From positions 1,984,001 through 2,048,000 of the forward strand of contig NC_079245.1 of NCBI RefSeq assembly GCF_028009165.1: DNA of 64,000 nt, given 5' to 3'. The position numbers were made by a program, and so were the translations under genes. Of this stretch, positions 12,516 to 24,227 are shown piece after piece (within the stretch, counting starts at the first letter, position 1; each line of letters begins with the position of its first letter). The stretch is from Akanthomyces muscarius. Taxonomy: Eukaryota > Ascomycota > Sordariomycetes > Hypocreales > Cordycipitaceae. The notes below the pieces were generated by a model. It was not told the DNA's origin. It saw only the letters and a program-made list of their open reading frames with translations, and searched no databases.

Positions 12516-14291
12516 ATGGCTTTCAAGGTCGCTACCCTCTGGCAGGCGCCCGAGCTCAATCCTGTCAATGGCAAGGCCCGTTCAATTCCCGTCCTCAACC
12601 CGTTTGACAGACATGGCCGTGTCTTTTTCTTCTCTTGGATTGGCTTCATGGTTGCGTTCCTCTCGTGGTAAGTCAGCTTTGCTAAACTCTTTTCTGCCAG
12701 AAGATATACATAAAAGCGCTGCCAATTCAATACGACCAAGACTGACATGGAGAATCTAGGTACGCGTTTCCGCCTCTGGTACGGCAGCCCGATCCTACAA
12801 TACTCGAAGATACCGGTCCTTTACGATACAATTATACTGACAGCGAATAGTTGACCTTGACCATCAAGAAGGATCTCAAGCTCACGCCGACTGAGATTGC
12901 CAACTCCAACATTGTTGCTCTTGCATCCACGTACGAAGCTCTGCCCTCTGCAAATCAGCACAATCCTGAAGCATAAATGCACTTTCAAGAGGAGAAGCTA
13001 ACAAGTCTCCAGGCTCTTTGTTCGCGTCCTTTCCGGTCCTTCATGTGACTACTTCGGCCCAAAGGTCACTTTTGCCGCCCTTCTGCTTCTGGGCGCCGTC
13101 CCCTCTGCCCTCGCCGGCACCGTCACCACGGCCAATGGCCTGATTGCTCTGCGCTTCTTCGTTGGCATCCTCGGCGGCACCTTTGTGCCCTGCCAGGTGT
13201 GGACTACCAGCTTCTTTGATAAGAACGTCGTTGGCACGGCCAACGCCCTCACGGCCGGATGGGGCAACGCCGGCGGTGGCATCACCTACTTTGTCATGCC
13301 CGCCATCTTTGACTCTCTCGTGGAGCACCAGCACCTCGCCCCCCACGTTGCGTGGCGCGTGTCCTTTGTCGTGCCGTTCATCCTCATCACCTCTATTGCT
13401 CTCGGTATGATGCTGTTCTGCGACGACTGTGCGACGGGCAAGTGGTCGGAGCGCCACCATGCCGTCCAGGGTAACCTGCACCGCCGCGGCCTCAGCACGT
13501 CCAACTCGAGCGTCCAGGAGAAGCGCACTGGTGATGCTACGGCTCCCTTTGAGGCAACTCCCGAGGCTGCTTTCACTGAGCAGATGAAGAACGAGGCTGT
13601 CTGCAACGATGCTGAGCTCAGCGACCAGGAACTCCTCGACGCTGCCAACCACGAGGTGGTTAAGGCACCGACTCTCAAGGACACCATCATGGTCACCATC
13701 AGCCCCCAGACTATCGTCGTTGCCGCTGTGTACATGTGCTCCTTTGGTGCCGAGCTTGCCATCAACTCCGTCCTCGGCGCCTACTACTTCAAGAACTTCA
13801 AGGCGCTTGGACAGACTGGCACCGGCCGCTGGGCTGCCATGTTTGGCCTGCTCAACGTCGCCTTCCGTCCCCTTGGCGGCGTCATCTCGGATGCGCTCTA
13901 CCGCGCCACCGGCAGCGTCTGGTCCAAGAAGATTTGGCTCTGCTCCCTCGGTGTCGCCTGCGGCGCCTTTCAGATCGCCATTGGCTTGACCGACTCCCAC
14001 TCCCACTCCACCATGTTCGGCCTCATGGCCGGCATGGCCTTTTTCCTCGAGGCCGGCAACGGTGCTTGCTTCTCCCTCGTGCCGCATGTCCATCCCGCCG
14101 CCAACGGCATCATATCCGGCATGGCGGGCGCCGCGGGCAATCTCGGCGGCATCATCTTTGCCGTCATCTTCCGCTACCAGGGTACCGACTACGGCAAGAC
14201 CTTTTGGGTCATTGGTGTCATTACCATTGCCATCAACGTGCTCGTATCCTGGGTCAAGCCTGTCCCTGCTGGTCAGGTTGGTGGTCGCTAA
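12516..14291 (+). CDS. crnA: High-affinity nitrate transporter, NNP family (MFS)
   Basis: Plasma-membrane nitrate/nitrite importer of the CrnA/NrtA type with 12 expected helices. Four exons: 12516-12667, 12760-12778, 12851-12930 and 13013-14291, giving 509 residues, the usual family length. The two nitrate-signature motifs are present: AGWGNAGGG near residue 165 and AGAAGNLGG near 455. A hydrophilic loop of about 90 residues, including [10 protein letters not shown], separates the two halves as in fungal members. The second exon is only 19 nt; it supplies the end of the first helix block (WYAFPPL) and is needed to keep phase. It is divergent from nitrate reductase, consistent with co-regulation, and a NIT4-like palindrome lies in its promoter. 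No nitrite reductase gene is in the window. Confidence 0.96.
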
Positions 14292-14714
14292 ATTGGCGCG
14301 CGCGGAACCTCTCTTTTTTTTTCTTAAATACTTGTGTGATACCATGCATTTAGGAGGCAAACGCCAAGAATGGTGGTGATATTTGTGGCATGTTGGATTT
14401 TAGCATACACATTGGACCGAGAAATGAGCGTCCTTGTACATTTCGACCAAAAAAGCAATCGTTTTGGATAATAACCTTTTGATATATAATTCTTCATCTT
14501 CTACATAAGCTGTCTACAAGTTCAACTAGAAGGTTTTTTTTTCTCAAAGCAAAATGCCTTGACCCAACAATGACAACCTCGATAAGAATGGCATGGTAAA
14601 AAACATAAATCGACACGCCACGCGATTATTCTTGTCCAAGATATTGTAGTGACTTGGCTCTTGTTTTTAACGGCCAGTAGACAAGTTGTGGAGGCTAGAG
14701 ATGTCTGGTCAGCT
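14292..14714. other. Short convergent intergenic region
   Basis: 423 bp between the 3' ends of the nitrate transporter and ADE4. AT-rich with several poly-T and poly-A runs suited to termination of both transcripts; no gene seen. Confidence 0.7.
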
Positions 14715-17220
14715 TTACTTCTCCCGCACGGTTACCCCTTTTTGTTCTGCATACCTAATGTCCTCCTGGCTCGTCATGGCCTCGTTGACGGGGCCTCCGT
14801 TGCCGACGAGGGTTAGCTTCTTGGAGTCGGCCCCGTCGACGCCATCCTCGGGCGTCTTCCTCTTCTGGCCCTTGGCGGCGCGCAGCTCGCTCAGGTGCTG
14901 GAAGTAGCTCTCGGGCACGTCCGTTTGGTACTTGCCCGAGAAGACGCCGACCTCGAAGTCGGTAATCTGCGTCTCGCCTTCGATGGCCTCAAAGCAGGCC
15001 GCCTTGAGGTCGTCGAGGGATTGGTATATCAGCTAAAGGGGGGGGGGTTAGTTTCTGACTCTTTTCGGCAAATTTTAAATCTTGCGTACCTCGTCAGCGC
15101 CAATCTCCTTGGCAATCTGTTGTCTCGTCTTCCCGTGCGCAACAAGTTCTGTGGGAACTCCTGTGTTAGCGTTCATGTCTTGACATTAGAAAGCGGGCAT
15201 GCTCGTTAGCTTACGATTAGGATCCGCGAGGTCAATGCCGTATACGTGCGGGTGTGTGATTTCCGGCGAGCAAGAGGCCAAGATGACCTTTTTGGCGCCT
15301 GCTTCTCTGCTCATCAGGACCTGAAGCAGTGTTAATACGTGAAAATGGCAGTTCAAGGACAAAAGTAGCCACATACAATTTCTCTTGACGTATTACCGCG
15401 AACAATGGAGTCGTCGACAAGCAGGACAATCTTGTCACGGAACTCTGAATGGATGGGCGAGAGCTTTCTGCGAATACCCTGCTGGCGTGCTTTTTGGCCG
15501 GGCTGCGGTTTTTTAGTATGGGCTCTCAAGGGTAGCACCGACTTGACGACTTACCATGATGAATGTTCTGAAGGTGTACCTATTTTTGACAAAAGCATTT
15601 GACAGCGGCTTGTTCAAGCAACTAGCAAGGACGGAAGCGGATGTGTTGCTTGTCTGTTTACAATTAGTATCCTCATCGCGTGCCGTTAAAAAAAAAAAAA
15701 AATTGAAACGCGTACCTCAGGGATAGGAATAACTGGCACAAGTCAGCACGAAACTCATTAACTGTCTTAGTAGGACGCAACATACCGACGTCAATCTCTT
15801 CGATGCCCTTTTCGCCTAAAATTTCCCGCATTTTGTCCGCCAGCTTGCGGCCCATGTTCTGACGACTGCGATGGATAGAGATACCGTCGCTCAGAGAGTC
15901 AGGACGTGAAAAATAAACCATTTCGAAAACTTTGGGGGGTTAGTTAGGAGCCCTTGAGGCTGATCAAAAAGAGAGACTTACTATCGGGGGTATAAGACTT
16001 CATAGGGACAACCTGTCGGAACTGAGGCTTGCCGCCCTTTTGGATAAAGACGGCCTGTCCGGGCAGGATGTCGACGACGTTGCTGAAGCCGAGCTGGGTA
16101 AGGGCGACGGACTCGGAGGCCATTAAGTAATCCAGCGCGCCGTCGAGGGTGGCAGAGGGGCGCGATCCAAGACACAGAGGGCGAATACCATTCTCGTCTC
16201 TGCAATTGCGGTTAGTTGTACTGATGCAGCGAAATACGACAATAATGCATACCTGAAGCCGAGGATGCCGAAGCCAGTGATCATGGCGACACAGGCGTAA
16301 CCACCTTTGCATCGGGCATAGACCTCGCGCAGGCCAGCAAAGATGTCGTCGGCATTGGCACGAGCCTTGCCGAGCTCGTGGAGAGCGTGGGCGTACACGT
16401 TGAGGCTGTCAAGGTCCATTAGAAAATACCGAGCAAAGTCCGGCGGGGTAGAATAGCGTACAGAAGCTCAGAGTCAGAGTCGGTATTAACATGGCGGCGG
16501 GCCTCGAGGTCGAGGAAGACACGAAGCTCCTCGCTGTTGACCAGGTTGCCGTTGACGGCCAAGCTCAGGCCGAAAGGACTGTCTGTGATATGCGCTTAGA
16601 ATCGGGTATGAGTTGGGCGATTCCTGGAGTAATACATACTGACTAGAATAAGAGTTTAGCTTCTCTTGGCTACCTAAATTGAGATGATGCGTATGGACTC
16701 ACCATAGAAAGGCTGGGCCTCGGAGCTGTGTGAGACAAAGTCAGTATATCACTTCTCATCGTCACTTCAATTTACTCACGCAGACGAGGTTCCGGCGGTC
16801 GGGTAGCGGACATGCGAGATGCCCGCGAAGCCTGGTAGGTTATCGACGAGACGGGCAGGCTCCTGGAAAACCTTGGAAGCCATACCATTGCCCTTCATCT
16901 GGTACAGCCGTCCGCCCTGGCATACCGTGATACCCGCAGCGTCCTGTCCGCGCTAGTCCGGGGGCGCCATTAGCATCCGAATCCGAGACACTCCAAAAAT
17001 CCATCCAAATCCCCAGAAAACAATACATACGTGCTGAAGGTAGTAGATGCTCTCATGCAGCTCCACGGCAGCCGTGGTGGCCTTGACGTCGCCGAGCTAG
17101 GAAGCAATTCCAGGTCAGTATACGAAATTCCGGGGATATGCAGGGCCCGGTATCGGGTGCACGCGGGGCACAGGGCGAGAAAAAAAAGAGGCTCACCAGG
17201 ATGGCGCTGATGCCACACAT
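14715..17220 (-). CDS. ADE4: Amidophosphoribosyltransferase (glutamine PRPP amidotransferase), 15 exons
   Basis: Catalyses the first committed step of de novo purine synthesis, PRPP plus glutamine to phosphoribosylamine, in the cytosol. Exons: 17220-17197, 17096-17031, 16952-16780, 16725-16703, 16642-16640, 16582-16462, 16405-16253, 16199-15982, 15929-15786, 15732-15716, 15653-15555, 15502-15377, 15320-15215, 15148-15090 and 15032-14715. They join in phase to 549 residues. The class II glutaminase domain starts with MCGISAIL, so Cys2 is the nucleophile after Met removal, and there is no propeptide. [10 protein letters not shown] and [12 protein letters not shown] follow. The PRPP-binding motif [13 protein letters not shown] is near residues 374-386. 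The C-terminus ends in a Lys-rich tail of about 60 residues. The 3-nt fifth exon restores the conserved FYVNSPFG block; see findings. The gene is far more intron-dense than its intronless ABC neighbour. Confidence 0.96.
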
Positions 17221-17834: not shown

Positions 17835-20800
17835 TCAAAACAGCGACTTCTTCCACCACGGCGTCTTTTTAGGTGTCGCCTCGCCCTCCTCCTGCACGTC
17901 ATATTTACCGACAATCGTCAGAAAGACTTCATTTAGCGTCGTAGGGCTGACGCTATGATGCGCAACGCCCAGTCTCTCCCTGTTTTCCTCTAGTATGAGC
18001 AGCAGCTGTCCGATGACGCTGCCGTTGCCGCTGCCTCCGTCACTGCCGCCCGGCACCTGGATGGACGACGCAGGGACCGAGAAGCGCATCTGTCCATGGA
18101 AGGTCTCCTGCTCAGTTCGCGCGCCGGGAAAGGTCTCCATGACCCAAGCCTGGATCTGCTGCATTTCCTCGTCACTCGAGTGCGGCGCCGTTTTGCTCAC
18201 CATGTGCACATGCAAAGTGTCGCCAAACTTTTGGCACAGCTGCTCGGTGCCGCCGAGCGCCAGCATGCGTCGCGCCATTATGCCCGCCCGTGTCGCTAGA
18301 GTGTCGGCTTCCTCCATGCTGTGTGTCGTGAGCAGAATCGATCGGCCAGGGACCACAGCCTCGAGCGTGCGCCACATGATGCGCTTGGCAGCAGCATCAA
18401 GACCAGACGAGGGTTCATCGAGAAGAATTACTGAAGGGTTGCCCGTAAGCGCAATAGCCAAGGACAGCTTGCGCTTATTACCGCCGGAAAGCGTGTGCGC
18501 CATGACGCCAGTGTACGCTTCCAAGCCAACTGCGCGGATGACAGCTGTGACTTGATGCTCCACATCGGCGATGCCTCTGATGCGGGCATAGTGCTGCAAG
18601 TGCTCGGCTACAGTCATGGAGTCGATAGCGTCGAACTGCGGGCAGACTCCAAGATTGGCGCGCGCCGCAGGTCGATTCTTTGTGATGGATGCATTCTCCA
18701 CAAAGACATCGCCACCCATCCGGCTCGGGGCGATATCGCCACGAATGATGGATATTGTTGTTGACTTTCCTGCTCCGTTAGGACCAAGCAGTGCAAACAC
18801 TTCGCCGTGACCGACACCAAATGTGACATTATCAACAGCAGTCGTCTTTCCAAACGCCTTGGTCAGGTGTACCACGCGAAGGCCATCGGTTTCCTCACCC
18901 GGTCCATCCACACGGACCTCCTCTGCGGCCACCTCCGGATCCTCGGTATCCTCACTGTACTGTGGCTTGCCAGTCTTGTATTTGCCATCGGAGCTCTCAA
19001 AGTAAACGACCATACTGAACCAAAAGATGCACTGCACGATAAGATATACAAGCGGGCCTCCGTAAGCCTTCATAGCGCCAGGGTTGCTCTGCAGCGCAAA
19101 ACCGTCACACGTGGTGGAAAAGACGTTGAGAGCGACCATGAGTGCGCGCACCAGCGAGCCCGTGGGGAAAATAATGGCAATAACCCAATGACCGATCAAG
19201 ACGCTCTTCTCCGTCTCCGCCGGGTCCGAATAGAGCAAGATGAAGAAATAAGCAATCAGATAGATTGCAAAACCCAAGCCTTGAATCACCGAGGCGATTG
19301 CATAAGTGGCCAAAGCACTCTTCATGATGAGCGACACAAAGTACGAAATCAAGATGGCTGCCAGCACGTAAAAGACGAAAATCGGAAACAAGAAACCGAC
19401 GTTGTACCAAATGCTAGACGTGCCCGCAAGGATGCCCGCCGCAATCAACATGGAAACGACCATGATGGACCAGTCAAAGATAGCGTGGGCTGCCCAGACG
19501 GGGAATGCGCGAGCACCGCTCGAGTACTGGAGCGCACGCACACCGTTGCGCTTCTCGGAATTTGGGTAAAGACCAAACAGACCCGGAATAACAGAGCATG
19601 CGAGTGCAAAGTAGACGATGACTTGCAGGCCGCTACCGGTAGACGGCGCAGCAGCAACGTCAAAGGGCTTATATTGGGTCGCGATTGTCTTGTTCAAGAG
19701 CAGACTATCAAGAAGGCTCTGGCCCAGTGTTGATGTGAACATGGACGCTGCCTCGTCCATCTTGTAGGCTAGTGTAGCTGCAGAGCCTGACTGTCCAAGC
19801 CAGATACCTGCAGGGGTGACATTTTTTCTGTTGTCCTCGATGTATGTCTTGAAAGAGTCAAACGAGTCGACCACTTTGATGTGGCTGCTGGCGCTGTCGG
19901 CAAGACTTGGAACGAGCGGCTTGAAGAGTTCTGCAACGGCGGAAGCACTAAATGTCGAGGATGGGCCGCCCACGATAAATGGAGAGCCAAGAAGGTCAGT
20001 GAACTGCGTGTTCTTGTTGTCGCTACTGCGATCTCTGGGAGAACAGCCAGGAGCTGATAGGTTCTTAATGAGTAGCTGGATGATCGCCGCTGCTATAATG
20101 GGAATCAGAAAAGCTGCCAGATAGGGCACCCAGTTCGTCTTGAAGATGACAAATCGTTTTTGCAAAAGAACAATGATTTGGCGAAAGAGACCTAGCTGGC
20201 GACCGTGCAAGAGGGGAAGCGCTTCACCAGCCGATGGCTTTTCTATCGCGGGACTCTCACTGGGACTGATCTTGTTCTCCAGAGCACCCTCACGCGAGAT
20301 AGCTTGGTCTCTCATGCCATGGTCATTGATCTCTTCGGCCAAGTTTAAAAACACGTCTTCAATTGTCGGGCCGGAGAACTTGTACGGCACATTGCGGGAT
20401 TCGAGCAGGCGGATGACGGAGGCGGCATGGGTTGCGGAGCTCGCGACATAGGTTATTGTGTTGGAGGAAATGTAGCGGTCTACGCCTTCGACTTCCGGAG
20501 CGCGGCTCATCATGTGCCGGGCATTGAGAACATGCACGCGGTATCCAGAGCCAAAGGTATCCTTGAGCTGGACCGAGGAGCCTTCGGCGCGGAGCCTGCC
20601 CTTAGACAGAATCGCAATGTTGTCAGCAAGAAGGTCGGCCTCGTCGAGAAAGTGCGTCGTCATGATGATTGTGCGGCTACCACGCTCGCGAAGGAGGATA
20701 TCCCAAATCTTGCGGCGCGACAGCGGATCAATACCAGACGAGACTTCATCGACGCAGCAAACGGCGCTGTCGCCAATCAGCATCAGACCAAGCTGCAATT

Positions 20801-22610
20801 TGCGCTTCTGTCCGCCAGAGAGCGTCTTGGCCATCTCCTTGGTCTTTTTCTTGAGACCAATAGCATGGATGAGGTTGTCAATCTGTTCTTGTGTCGCTGG
20901 GTTGGATGGCGTCTTGAGACTGGCAAAGACATGGAGATGCTCCTCGACAGTAAGCTCCCCCCAAAGAACATTCTTTTGCGGCGCAATGCCCAGACCACCG
21001 GTCGTATCAATCGCAATATCGCCGCTCGTAAAGTTGCTGATGCCGGCGATAGCGTCGAGGGTCGTGCTCTTACCACTGCCATTTGCACCGAGCAGCGCCA
21101 GGATCTGGCCCTTTTTCGCGGTGAGCGTTAATGAATCCACGGCGACCACCTCCGGTCTCGGCGGCGACACAAAGGAAAATAATCGGCGCAGAAAAGTCGG
21201 CTTGTAGATCTTGGTCATGTTCTTGATATGGACGGCATCGGGCAGCGCGGAGCCGTTGGCGGCCGGCGCCGCGTTTTGGCGCGTGCCGGTGGTGACACCG
21301 TGCAGTGAGCGCTCGAGGAGCGCGGCGAGCAGAGGGTAGGCCAGGATCTGAATGGCGAAAAACACCCACATGACAATACCGGGCAGCTTCCAGGGGCTGT
21401 TTGGGTGGGCGTGCAGCAGGTTGGTGGGGAGGGCCTCCTGCTCGTAGCGCGCAATGTAGGTGATGAAGTAGACAAAGTTGCAGGGCGTAAATAGGAGGCT
21501 GAGGACGGCCACGGTGCCGGTGCCGGGATGAGGAATGGCCTGGGCGACAATGCCAAGGACGAGCCAAACGAGCGCGGTGATGATGCCAGACAGCTGCGCC
21601 TTTTTGAAGAAGCATGCGCCGAGCAGCGACATGGACGTCATGGCCACGCCCGCGAGGATGAAGAAGGGGATGACGATGCCGTAGCTGACATTGGTCCAGA
21701 TGAGAATGCGGTTCACCACGGCGGCAATGATCCAGCCGGGCAGATACGTGATGATGAAGGCATTGTGGTGAGATAGGAGGCGGGCAAGCTGGCAGTGCCA
21801 CTTGGCCTGGACGGGCATCATGGCGTCAATCAGCTGCGACATACCAATCTCACGCTCCGTCGCAATGAAGCCCGGCATGTGGTAGCAGACGCCAATCAGT
21901 GCCATGATGAAGGCGACGCTGAGAAAGTTGATAAATGTCTTTTGATACTCGCGGCGCACCTTGGCCTGGCGCTCGTCCTCGGTGAGGGCTGAGTATGCAT
22001 ACTGCTGCGTCTCGGTCGGGAACGAGCCTGTCGACTCGTGCTTGGCAATCGCGGCATCGACCGCCCGCTGCAGCGGCAGTGCATAGACTTCCGCCGCATT
22101 GTTGCTCTTGTCCACGCGAAACGAGCGGCCGAGCGCGCCGTCGCCGCGCAGCGTGTAGTTCCAGTAGCCGCCATCGCCCTCGTCGGGCGAGGAGTGAATC
22201 ACGACGGCGCCAAAGCACCGCGTCGTCGCCTGGATCGAGCCCTTGCAGACGTAGCCAATGTCAGACTCCTGGCTCAGGCGGGTGGCATTTTTGCCGGCAG
22301 ACGTTACAGCGTCGGCGACGGCGTCAAGGACCGTGTCAATGGCACCGCCGGTGTGGCCCGAATTGACGAGGACGACGGTGCTGCGGCCGCCGGTGGCGTG
22401 GCCCAGGGCATCGGCGAGCGAATCGATGTCCTGCGGCGTGCCGATGCCGTACTTGTCGTCGGCGTTGTTGAACTTTTGGCCGAGGCCGAGGTAGAGCGAG
22501 GCGATGACGGGCAGGATGAGCGCCGAGTAGAGCGTCGAGACAAAGTGCCGCTGGATGATGATTTTGAGCGTCTTGTTGCGCAGCGCCGAAATTTGGCGGT
22601 AAAGATCCAT
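17835..22610 (-). CDS. ABC transporter, full-length ABCA-type (TMD-NBD-TMD-NBD)
   Basis: Integral membrane ATP-driven transporter with the arrangement of the ABCA subfamily, whose animal members move lipids; substrate unknown here. 1591 residues in a single uninterrupted exon. Half 1: a TM segment near residue 30, a large extracytoplasmic loop (about 50-220), then a helix cluster. NBD1 has Walker A LLGANGSGKSTT near 507, signature LSGGQKRKLQ and Walker B CCVDEVSSGID. Half 2 repeats the plan: a TM near 850, a loop, a helix cluster, then NBD2 with LLGPNGAGKSTT near 1275, LSGGNKRKLSLA and VILLDEPSSGLD. Both NBDs keep the catalytic Glu after the Walker B Asp, so both look able to hydrolyse ATP. 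The start MDLYRQISALRNKT is the first ATG of the frame. It is next to ADE4 and a PLP decarboxylase on the same strand, with no evident common pathway. Confidence 0.95.
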   Translation of the reverse strand: MDLYRQISALRNKTLKIIIQRHFVSTLYSALILPVIASLYLGLGQKFNNADDKYGIGTPQDIDSLADALGHATGGRSTVVLVNSGHTGGAIDTVLDAVADAVTSAGKNATRLSQESDIGYVCKGSIQATTRCFGAVVIHSSPDEGDGGYWNYTLRGDGALGRSFRVDKSNNAAEVYALPLQRAVDAAIAKHESTGSFPTETQQYAYSALTEDERQAKVRREYQKTFINFLSVAFIMALIGVCYHMPGFIATEREIGMSQLIDAMMPVQAKWHCQLARLLSHHNAFIITYLPGWIIAAVVNRILIWTNVSYGIVIPFFILAGVAMTSMSLLGACFFKKAQLSGIITALVWLVLGIVAQAIPHPGTGTVAVLSLLFTPCNFVYFITYIARYEQEALPTNLLHAHPNSPWKLPGIVMWVFFAIQILAYPLLAALLERSLHGVTTGTRQNAAPAANGSALPDAVHIKNMTKIYKPTFLRRLFSFVSPPRPEVVAVDSLTLTAKKGQILALLGANGSGKSTTLDAIAGISNFTSGDIAIDTTGGLGIAPQKNVLWGELTVEEHLHVFASLKTPSNPATQEQIDNLIHAIGLKKKTKEMAKTLSGGQKRKLQLGLMLIGDSAVCCVDEVSSGIDPLSRRKIWDILLRERGSRTIIMTTHFLDEADLLADNIAILSKGRLRAEGSSVQLKDTFGSGYRVHVLNARHMMSRAPEVEGVDRYISSNTITYVASSATHAASVIRLLESRNVPYKFSGPTIEDVFLNLAEEINDHGMRDQAISREGALENKISPSESPAIEKPSAGEALPLLHGRQLGLFRQIIVLLQKRFVIFKTNWVPYLAAFLIPIIAAAIIQLLIKNLSAPGCSPRDRSSDNKNTQFTDLLGSPFIVGGPSSTFSASAVAELFKPLVPSLADSASSHIKVVDSFDSFKTYIEDNRKNVTPAGIWLGQSGSAATLAYKMDEAASMFTSTLGQSLLDSLLLNKTIATQYKPFDVAAAPSTGSGLQVIVYFALACSVIPGLFGLYPNSEKRNGVRALQYSSGARAFPVWAAHAIFDWSIMVVSMLIAAGILAGTSSIWYNVGFLFPIFVFYVLAAILISYFVSLIMKSALATYAIASVIQGLGFAIYLIAYFFILLYSDPAETEKSVLIGHWVIAIIFPTGSLVRALMVALNVFSTTCDGFALQSNPGAMKAYGGPLVYLIVQCIFWFSMVVYFESSDGKYKTGKPQYSEDTEDPEVAAEEVRVDGPGEETDGLRVVHLTKAFGKTTAVDNVTFGVGHGEVFALLGPNGAGKSTTISIIRGDIAPSRMGGDVFVENASITKNRPAARANLGVCPQFDAIDSMTVAEHLQHYARIRGIADVEHQVTAVIRAVGLEAYTGVMAHTLSGGNKRKLSLAIALTGNPSVILLDEPSSGLDAAAKRIMWRTLEAVVPGRSILLTTHSMEEADTLATRAGIMARRMLALGGTEQLCQKFGDTLHVHMVSKTAPHSSDEEMQQIQAWVMETFPGARTEQETFHGQMRFSVPASSIQVPGGSDGGSGNGSVIGQLLLILEENRERLGVAHHSVSPTTLNEVFLTIVGKYDVQEEGEATPKKTPWWKKSLF

Positions 22611-24227
22611 GGCCGGCGGTGGGATGGCAAGCCCCGAGGGCTATTCTATGGCGTAAGTCAAAATGGAATAGGGCGAACGTAGGGGGAGAGGTTGCTGGAG
22701 CAGACGTCGTGAGGTTGGGCAATCTCGACACCAAAGTCAAGTAAACCCAGAATCCGTGTTGTATATTAATTACAAGTGTAGGGCTTGTGCTTAGAGGTCT
22801 AGGAACAATTTACAAAAAAAAGATGGACCTCGAGGTCAATATAAGCTACGGCCTACAGCTCTTGGCTTGTCGCGACCACGAGGCTGAGCCTTGCAGCTGG
22901 ACTCCCTTGATCCACAAACAAACCAAAGACGCCCAGCCAAAGCTGGGGCTCGCAAGCTCGTACTAGCCGTATTCAGTGATACGCAGCGCTACCACCTAAA
23001 AGCCGATGACGTTTTTCTGGGCCGGGCTGAGATCTGTCGCACACGAAACGATGAATACGCTGTGGATCTCGTCGTTCCCTCGACCAATGCCGTCGCCGCT
23101 TCCTGCTTGGCGCGTGCTGACGACTCCATCCTGTGGCTCTGATTCATTCTTATTCCTCGCTTTGGGCTTCTCAAGGTGAGGCTTGGCCTGTGTGTGTTCG
23201 GGCGGTGCCTAATCTCGTCAATGATCGCCCTTGCGCGCCTGGGCGTACGTGCCCACGTACTTGTAGGGCAGACATTGGCAGCTGTCAGTGGCTGATTGGG
23301 TGCGGTGGCTCATTTCGCACTTGTCGTAATTATAGAAAGAAGAGCTCAAAATGCTATCCAGTGCCCATCACCACGCTTGATCGGTCGATTGATTTGCGCC
23401 GTCTGACCTGAGCAGCCTGGGAGGCGCACACAGTCCTTCGGTAGCCAAATACAACCCCGGCATTGACTACTTAGAGTTAGACTGCCTCGCGGGCGGGCAG
23501 AAAACAGCCAAGACATGGGACTCAACCGAGGTCAAGTTTTTCCATATTGCTCGGGCTAAACTGATTGTCAAGGAAAATAGACTATAATTTTGAATTTAGG
23601 TGCGTGGTCGAGAGCGTGCATTCTTTTCGCGTGGATGCGGGAGGGGGCTCATGTCGTCTGGCGTCTTGGCAGTCTTGGGACTCGAAAAGGACAAGGCCGG
23701 CAGCTGAGCGGCTCTGCGTCATGATTTAGTCGTTTCGCTTCCAAAGAAGGTTTGCCAACGTAGTACGCGGCCTGATCGGCACGTGGATCTACTGAGTAGC
23801 TCCTGGTGGCTGTTTACTCCTGCGCATTTACCCGCGGCTGGCTATCAAGTGTACGATCGGTCGGCCCTCGACCGATGCGTACAGAAATCAAAACCTCACA
23901 TGCTGTTTACAGTGTCTTGGGGGGGGGTTGGCATCAAGATTGAGAGGGCCGCTTGTAGAATGCACACGCGGAAAACGCTTCGGGTTCTTAGTCAGAGCCA
24001 ATTTATTGAAAAGAAAACATCGCATGTATGTAACATGTCTAAGTCCATTTTATATAAAGCGACAATGTACAATAGCTAATAAATATAGAAAAGAGCCAAC
24101 ATTATAAACAAGAAGATGCCAAAGAATACTGCCAGCGTCCGAAATCTAAAAAGAAATGCAAATGCCATCGAAAACGTTGCAATGTTCAACAAAGGAGAAG
24201 GCCACATCATCATCATCATACCTCCCT
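22611..24227. other. 1.6-kb intergenic region
   Basis: Upstream flank of the ABC gene and 3' flank of the decarboxylase gene. The ORFs (for example about 80 codons at 22891-23142) show no family motif. No gene is called. Confidence 0.65.

Follow-up and report, generated by a model that had tools for sequence, protein, structure and literature searches.

The window, i.e. the whole 64-kb stretch of Akanthomyces muscarius DNA that was analysed, carries ADE4, the gene encoding amidophosphoribosyltransferase, on its minus strand (17220..14667). The gene model comprises 16 exons and 15 introns, the latter being 100, 78, 54, 60, 57, 56, 53, 52, 53, 62, 52, 56, 66, 57 and 60 nt long in order, and encodes 545 aa when a 3-nt exon 5 is included. 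With microexons defined as internal exons of 30 nt or less, exon 5 is by its length a microexon and exon 10 is a second, less extreme one (Table 1); further short exons of ADE4 measure 23, 24 and 28 nt. The gene is flanked by a 1601-aa open frame (17835-22640, minus strand), which by eye resembles a fungal ABC transporter, and by a second open frame (13002-14291, plus strand), which by eye looks similar to an MFS transporter of the nitrate/nitrite type. A tblastn search for a retrocopy in the genome gave 11 matches among the best candidates scored, all inside the single ADE4 locus. Since only this locus was listed among these best candidates, the assembly (G000) may have no other Ade4 than the AVNGN form encoded there (AHNGN in Neurospora relatives).

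Table 1. Coordinates of the ADE4 features discussed in the text (positions in the window).
Feature	Position	Strand	Length	Sequence features
exon 4	16703..16725	-	23 nt	3' end TTTCTATG / CCTTTCTATG
intron 4	16643..16702	-	60 nt	GTGAGT ... GCTAAAC ... TTCTAG
exon 5	16640..16642	-	3 nt	TCA; G (exon 4) + TCA + AC (exon 6) = GTC AAC, Val96-Asn97
intron 5	16583..16639	-	57 nt	GTATGT ... TTCTAAGC ... ATCACAG
exon 6	16462..16582	-	121 nt	5' end ACAGTCC, ACAGTCCTTTCGG
exon 10	15716..15732	-	17 nt	second, less extreme microexon (gene model)

Exons 4 and 6 are separated by 120 nt (16702-16583). When they are joined directly (16703 to 16582), the junction reads TTTCTATGACAGTCC / TTTCTATGACAGTCCTTTC and codes FYDSPFG, whereas inclusion of exon 5 gives TTTCTATGTCAACAGTCC / TTTCTATGTCAACAGTCCTTTC, which codes FYVNSPFG. 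Both peptides had been put forward in the initial annotation, together with the ends of the two exons, the distance between them and the position of TCA (16642-16640); all these coordinates proved exact and translation of the two models returned both peptides. The model that lacks exon 5 agrees in every residue with the protein deposited for A. muscarius (LMH87_009948, hereafter P0001), so that the 3-nt exon is the sole difference between the deposited protein and the 545-aa model.

Exon 5 lies in the context TTCTAG/TCA/GTATGT and is bordered by canonical GT-AG introns on both sides. As proposed at the outset, these introns of 60 and 57 nt have their own donors (GTGAGT and GTATGT), their own AG and their own branch-like motif, CTAAA in intron 4 and CTAAG in intron 5, each ending 12 nt before the end of its intron. 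Both donors, as well as the acceptor ends CTAG and ACAG, recur among the other 13 ADE4 introns, and the lengths of introns 4 and 5 fall within the range of these introns (52-100 nt). An undivided intron of 120 nt would exceed them all. It should be counted against the exon that the two branch-like motifs finish in A or G, where C or T is usual; the nearest branch-like motif of intron 11 is also CTAAA.

The arrangement hardly looks fortuitous. The pattern YAG/TNA/GTRNGT occurs a single time across the two strands of the 64-kb window, and this lone occurrence is the exon 5 site, which matches the pattern. With equal base frequencies, the chance of finding it at one of the 28 eligible offsets of the 120-nt interval (those at which each of the two introns keeps at least 45 nt) is about 1e-4. 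In sequences simulated with a Markov model of the other 13 ADE4 introns, it was found in 4 of 60000 cases, and the looser YAG/TNA/GT in 299 of 60000. The region 16725-16540 offers 43 candidate GT-AG introns when their minimum length is set at 25 nt, from which 3 one-intron and 19 two-intron solutions keep the frame open; exactly one of the one- and two-intron solutions codes VNSP, namely the one with the 3-nt exon. The initial annotation had named as a refutation a different junction still coding VNS; no other of these GT-AG solutions gives the motif as VNSP. Non-canonical introns were rejected at this site: when donors may also be GC or AT and acceptors also AC, only one further solution codes VNSP, and it carries inserted residues (GDLILVNSP). 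A zero-length recursive splice site, where AG is followed by GT and nothing is kept, does not fit either, as three bases lie between them and are required for VN. The 120 nt could also be viewed as a stwintron, i.e. a nested intron removed from the inside out as one contiguous piece, and such introns are established in filamentous ascomycetes (PMC6616335). The donors and acceptors of both candidate introns are nevertheless uninterrupted, and cutting out one contiguous piece, irrespective of where it begins and ends, never produces VNSP or the relaxed motif [VITAC]N[SA]P. This disposes of a stwintron that would preserve the motif, and the probability left to any nested arrangement is negligible.

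The residues at stake belong to a very conserved block, as had been claimed from the sequence alone. The VNSP motif of the model aligns with the same VNSP in the solved PurF structures 8w7d and 1ecb. Three homologue searches (best 120 proteins of each) listed 354 distinct proteins, many of them bacterial or fragments, of which 351 cover the site in local alignments to the model and 3 miss it. The site reads VNSP in 295 of these 351 proteins, another form that keeps the N in 42, -DSP in 12, VDSP in one (P0015) and TSSP in one; N is therefore found at the second place of the motif in 337 of the 351 listed homologues that cover it. With the purF profile TIGR01134, the model scores 382.1 bits when exon 5 is included and 375.8 when it is left out (+6.3, for a cut-off of 350, which places the protein in the family), these scores having been obtained with an earlier version of the model (553/552 aa) that differs in exon 14 (4 residues) and at the C-terminus but not at the site. 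More distant profiles, two for GlmS and one for asparagine synthase B, favour the model that lacks the exon by 2.7 to 4.6 bits, which counts against it. Predicted structures were set aside because their pLDDT is too low (mean 59.4 for P0005, which has the VN form, and 57.0 for P0001, which has the D form), especially around the site, where it is below 50 in both. As its omission spoils a nearly universal stretch of the enzyme, the 3-nt exon is almost certainly real and, judging from this conservation, its skipping would damage the enzyme.

Among the homologues listed, the -DSP form is restricted to one clade. In a tree of 71 rows (the window and 70 of the 354 proteins, i.e. P0001-P0059 and 11 others), the window belongs to a clade of 17 rows (support 100/98) that includes Akanthomyces, Beauveria, Aphanocladium, Lecanicillium, Cordyceps, five rows from Fusarium solani and its kin, Dactylonectria (P0015) and P0016; we take the five Fusarium rows to belong together in the F. 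solani complex. All 12 -DSP proteins of the tree and P0015, an annotation with a garbled insert before GDSP, are confined to this clade, whose three remaining rows besides the window read VNSP (P0005, P0008 and P0016). Thirteen annotated rows of the clade bear a protein-level signature that may reflect a 3-nt exon shared by these relatives. An Asp codon needs G followed by AY across the junction, as the direct joining of exons 4 and 6 gives here, and the same would apply to the relatives.

The three VNSP proteins of the clade are not equally informative. P0005 (555 aa, two contigs, the longest of 2302 nt) is identical to the annotated P0007 of Cordyceps militaris except for VN/D and for IFEYVYLSR/M. 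Its source tag is lgn, which we take to designate Logan assemblies of SRA runs. Since even the longest contig carrying this uninterrupted protein falls short of the 2554 nt that the gene spans here with its introns, P0005 points to spliced RNA, provided that the C. militaris gene has a similar length. P0008, a F. solani cluster with 22 member sequences drawn from ncbi, lgn and nr, also reads VNSP, in contrast to the DSP of its near-twin P0010; as this cluster includes contigs of up to 582,230 nt, its VNSP may have been derived by gene modelling instead of from RNA. P0016 (456 aa, contig of 4990 nt) is less informative. P0005 and P0008 point indirectly to the inclusion of a 3-nt exon in relatives, and by extension its inclusion in A. 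muscarius is probable. A DNA pattern combining the codons of EAQPFY with the donor matched nothing in either genome_contigs or viral_contigs. Searches for protein fragments from partial cDNAs retrieved none that is more than 81% identical to the query among the best 120 of 401 and the best 120 of 4118 matches, so that the matches listed include no fragment from a close relative within the clade.

The simplest opposing view is that one 120-nt intron (16702-16583) is removed and that the enzyme of the clade truly reads FYDSPFG. This is the deposited model, in which exon 4 is joined directly to exon 6 despite RNA-seq hints, the A. muscarius annotation having been guided by RNA-seq with BRAKER2 and HISAT2 (PMC10323777); the 12 annotated proteins concur with it, and so do the slightly higher scores of the distant GlmS profiles. 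However, it replaces VN by D and leaves the protein one residue short where nearly all listed homologues keep N, it calls for the longest intron of the gene, and P0005 and P0008 read VNSP although they are nearly identical to annotated DSP proteins. The mapper itself may explain the annotation: the sensitivity of HISAT2 was found in simulations to fall for microexons under 8 nt (PMC7821500), so reads bearing TCA may well have been mapped as a direct junction. Microexons missed by annotation are documented in plants (PMC8831610). These data make it very improbable that the annotated junction is the true one.

Alternatively, both isoforms might be made, regulated in-frame skipping leading to an inactive or altered Ade4. 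The length of the exon, a multiple of three, would keep the frame, and the regulated microexon of Trichoderma Xlr2 provides a precedent (PMC11121469). The 12 DSP proteins nevertheless look like genome annotations, as their source is ncbi throughout and 11 of them are on contigs of at least 18 kb; no DSP transcript was identified among the homologues listed and no sign of regulation was seen here, which makes this explanation very unlikely. A bolder version, in which inclusion would be adjustable and in-frame skipping would switch purine synthesis on or off at its first committed step, a control that would have been kept through the split between Cordycipitaceae and Fusarium solani/Dactylonectria, appears highly doubtful. 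By contrast with these alternatives, it is very probable that TCA (16642-16640) is a genuine constitutive 3-nt exon, spliced by intron definition through two successive removals, and that the annotated FYDSPFG is an artefact.

Other observations were made on the Ade4 proteins of the relatives. Further ADE4 exons look mishandled in their annotations: IFExVYxSR is missing at the start of exon 9 in P0007, P0009 and P0011, the stretch following IPIPE through FIM is missing in P0012 and P0013, and P0006 and P0012 have surplus residues before LIYQ. Besides, Ade4 of F. solani and its kin (P0008, P0010, P0011, P0013 and P0014) is 84-85% identical to that of the window and groups with Cordycipitaceae, and not with the Ade4-like proteins of other Fusarium (P0083, P0097 and P0102; 64-67%). 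This placing might result from an old duplication followed by losses or from a transfer.

The splicing of a 3-nt exon had been presented in the initial annotation as a mechanistic puzzle, for which sequential or recursive splicing was suggested. The sequential reading is retained, while the puzzle itself is largely met by intron definition combined with successive removal. In ascomycetes, intron definition is implied by the small size of most introns, many of which are shorter than 100 nt (PMC6616335), and the following scheme can be proposed for ADE4. The site would consist of two ordinary short U2-type introns located 3 nt apart, the donor at 16702 being paired with the acceptor at 16643 and the donor at 16639 with the acceptor at 16583. 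Introns 4 and 5 would be removed successively, as an exon of 3 nt can hardly hold the factors for both of its sites simultaneously. If intron 4 were removed first, the second donor would still be preceded by TCA and would remain intact; if intron 5 were removed first, the acceptor TTCTAG would remain intact. Either order would give the mature mRNA ...TTC TAT GTC AAC AGT CCT..., translated as FYVNSPFG, whereas direct skipping would require an intron of a size found nowhere else in ADE4. Intron definition with successive removal was likewise proposed for a 1-nt exon of Arabidopsis, and removal of the downstream intron first was reported for a 9-nt potato exon (both in PMC4674806).

The statement of the initial annotation that exons this short are hardly known is outdated. 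Exons of 3 nt are known in mouse Ncam and Drosophila TnT (cited in PMC8042270), and a 3-bp exon 2 is mentioned for a Ganoderma gpd construct (PMC8379801). In Arabidopsis APC11, an exon of 1 nt was described in 2015, the smallest known constitutive exon having been put at 6 nt until then (PMC4674806), and the 1-nt exon of Fusarium CYP621A is backed by 18 SRA reads (PMC12940212). Among the papers retrieved by a literature search on 3-nt exons, none concerns ADE4, judging by titles or the start of abstracts, and the enzyme is not named among the matches listed by a search combining amidophosphoribosyltransferase with microexons. With ADE4, a gene for an enzyme of purine synthesis in filamentous fungi joins these cases through its probable constitutive exon of 3 nt. 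The same error recurs in 12 of the annotated proteins retrieved, or 13 if P0015 is counted, one of these annotations being RNA-seq-guided. The deletion of one residue in a nearly invariant motif, together with an over-long intron adjoining it, would be a cheap signal to search for more such exons, and the in-frame ADE4 case would be a clean substrate to study the order of removal of two introns 3 nt apart.

The closest known case is CYP621A, as described in PMC12940212: this gene is also hypocrealean, and its tiny exon also lies within a conserved motif, between two short introns, and was mistaken for part of an over-long intron (139 nt in F. graminearum), the gene-model transcripts listed by the authors being wrong in all cases but one. 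However, the CYP621A exon is 1 nt long, so that its skipping shifts the frame, whereas the 3-nt exon of ADE4 is in-frame; the former is supported by the SRA reads and the latter indirectly through relatives; and CYP621A is a rarely expressed P450, whereas ADE4 encodes an enzyme of purine synthesis. The other hypocrealean microexon, that of Trichoderma virens Xlr2, is a regulated switch in a transcription factor (PMC11121469). The exons of mouse Ncam and Drosophila TnT have the same length as exon 5 of ADE4 but belong to animal genes, and a larval tissue is reported in which that of TnT is skipped (PMC8042270). As in Pezizomycotina stwintrons, consecutive splicing reactions would take place by intron definition within one interval, but stwintrons are nested and nothing between their introns is kept in the mRNA (PMC6616335). 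Finally, the exon of Arabidopsis APC11 resembles the one proposed for ADE4, being constitutive, mis-annotated and explained by intron definition with successive removal; it differs in being a plant exon of 1 nt that was demonstrated with reporter constructs (PMC4674806).
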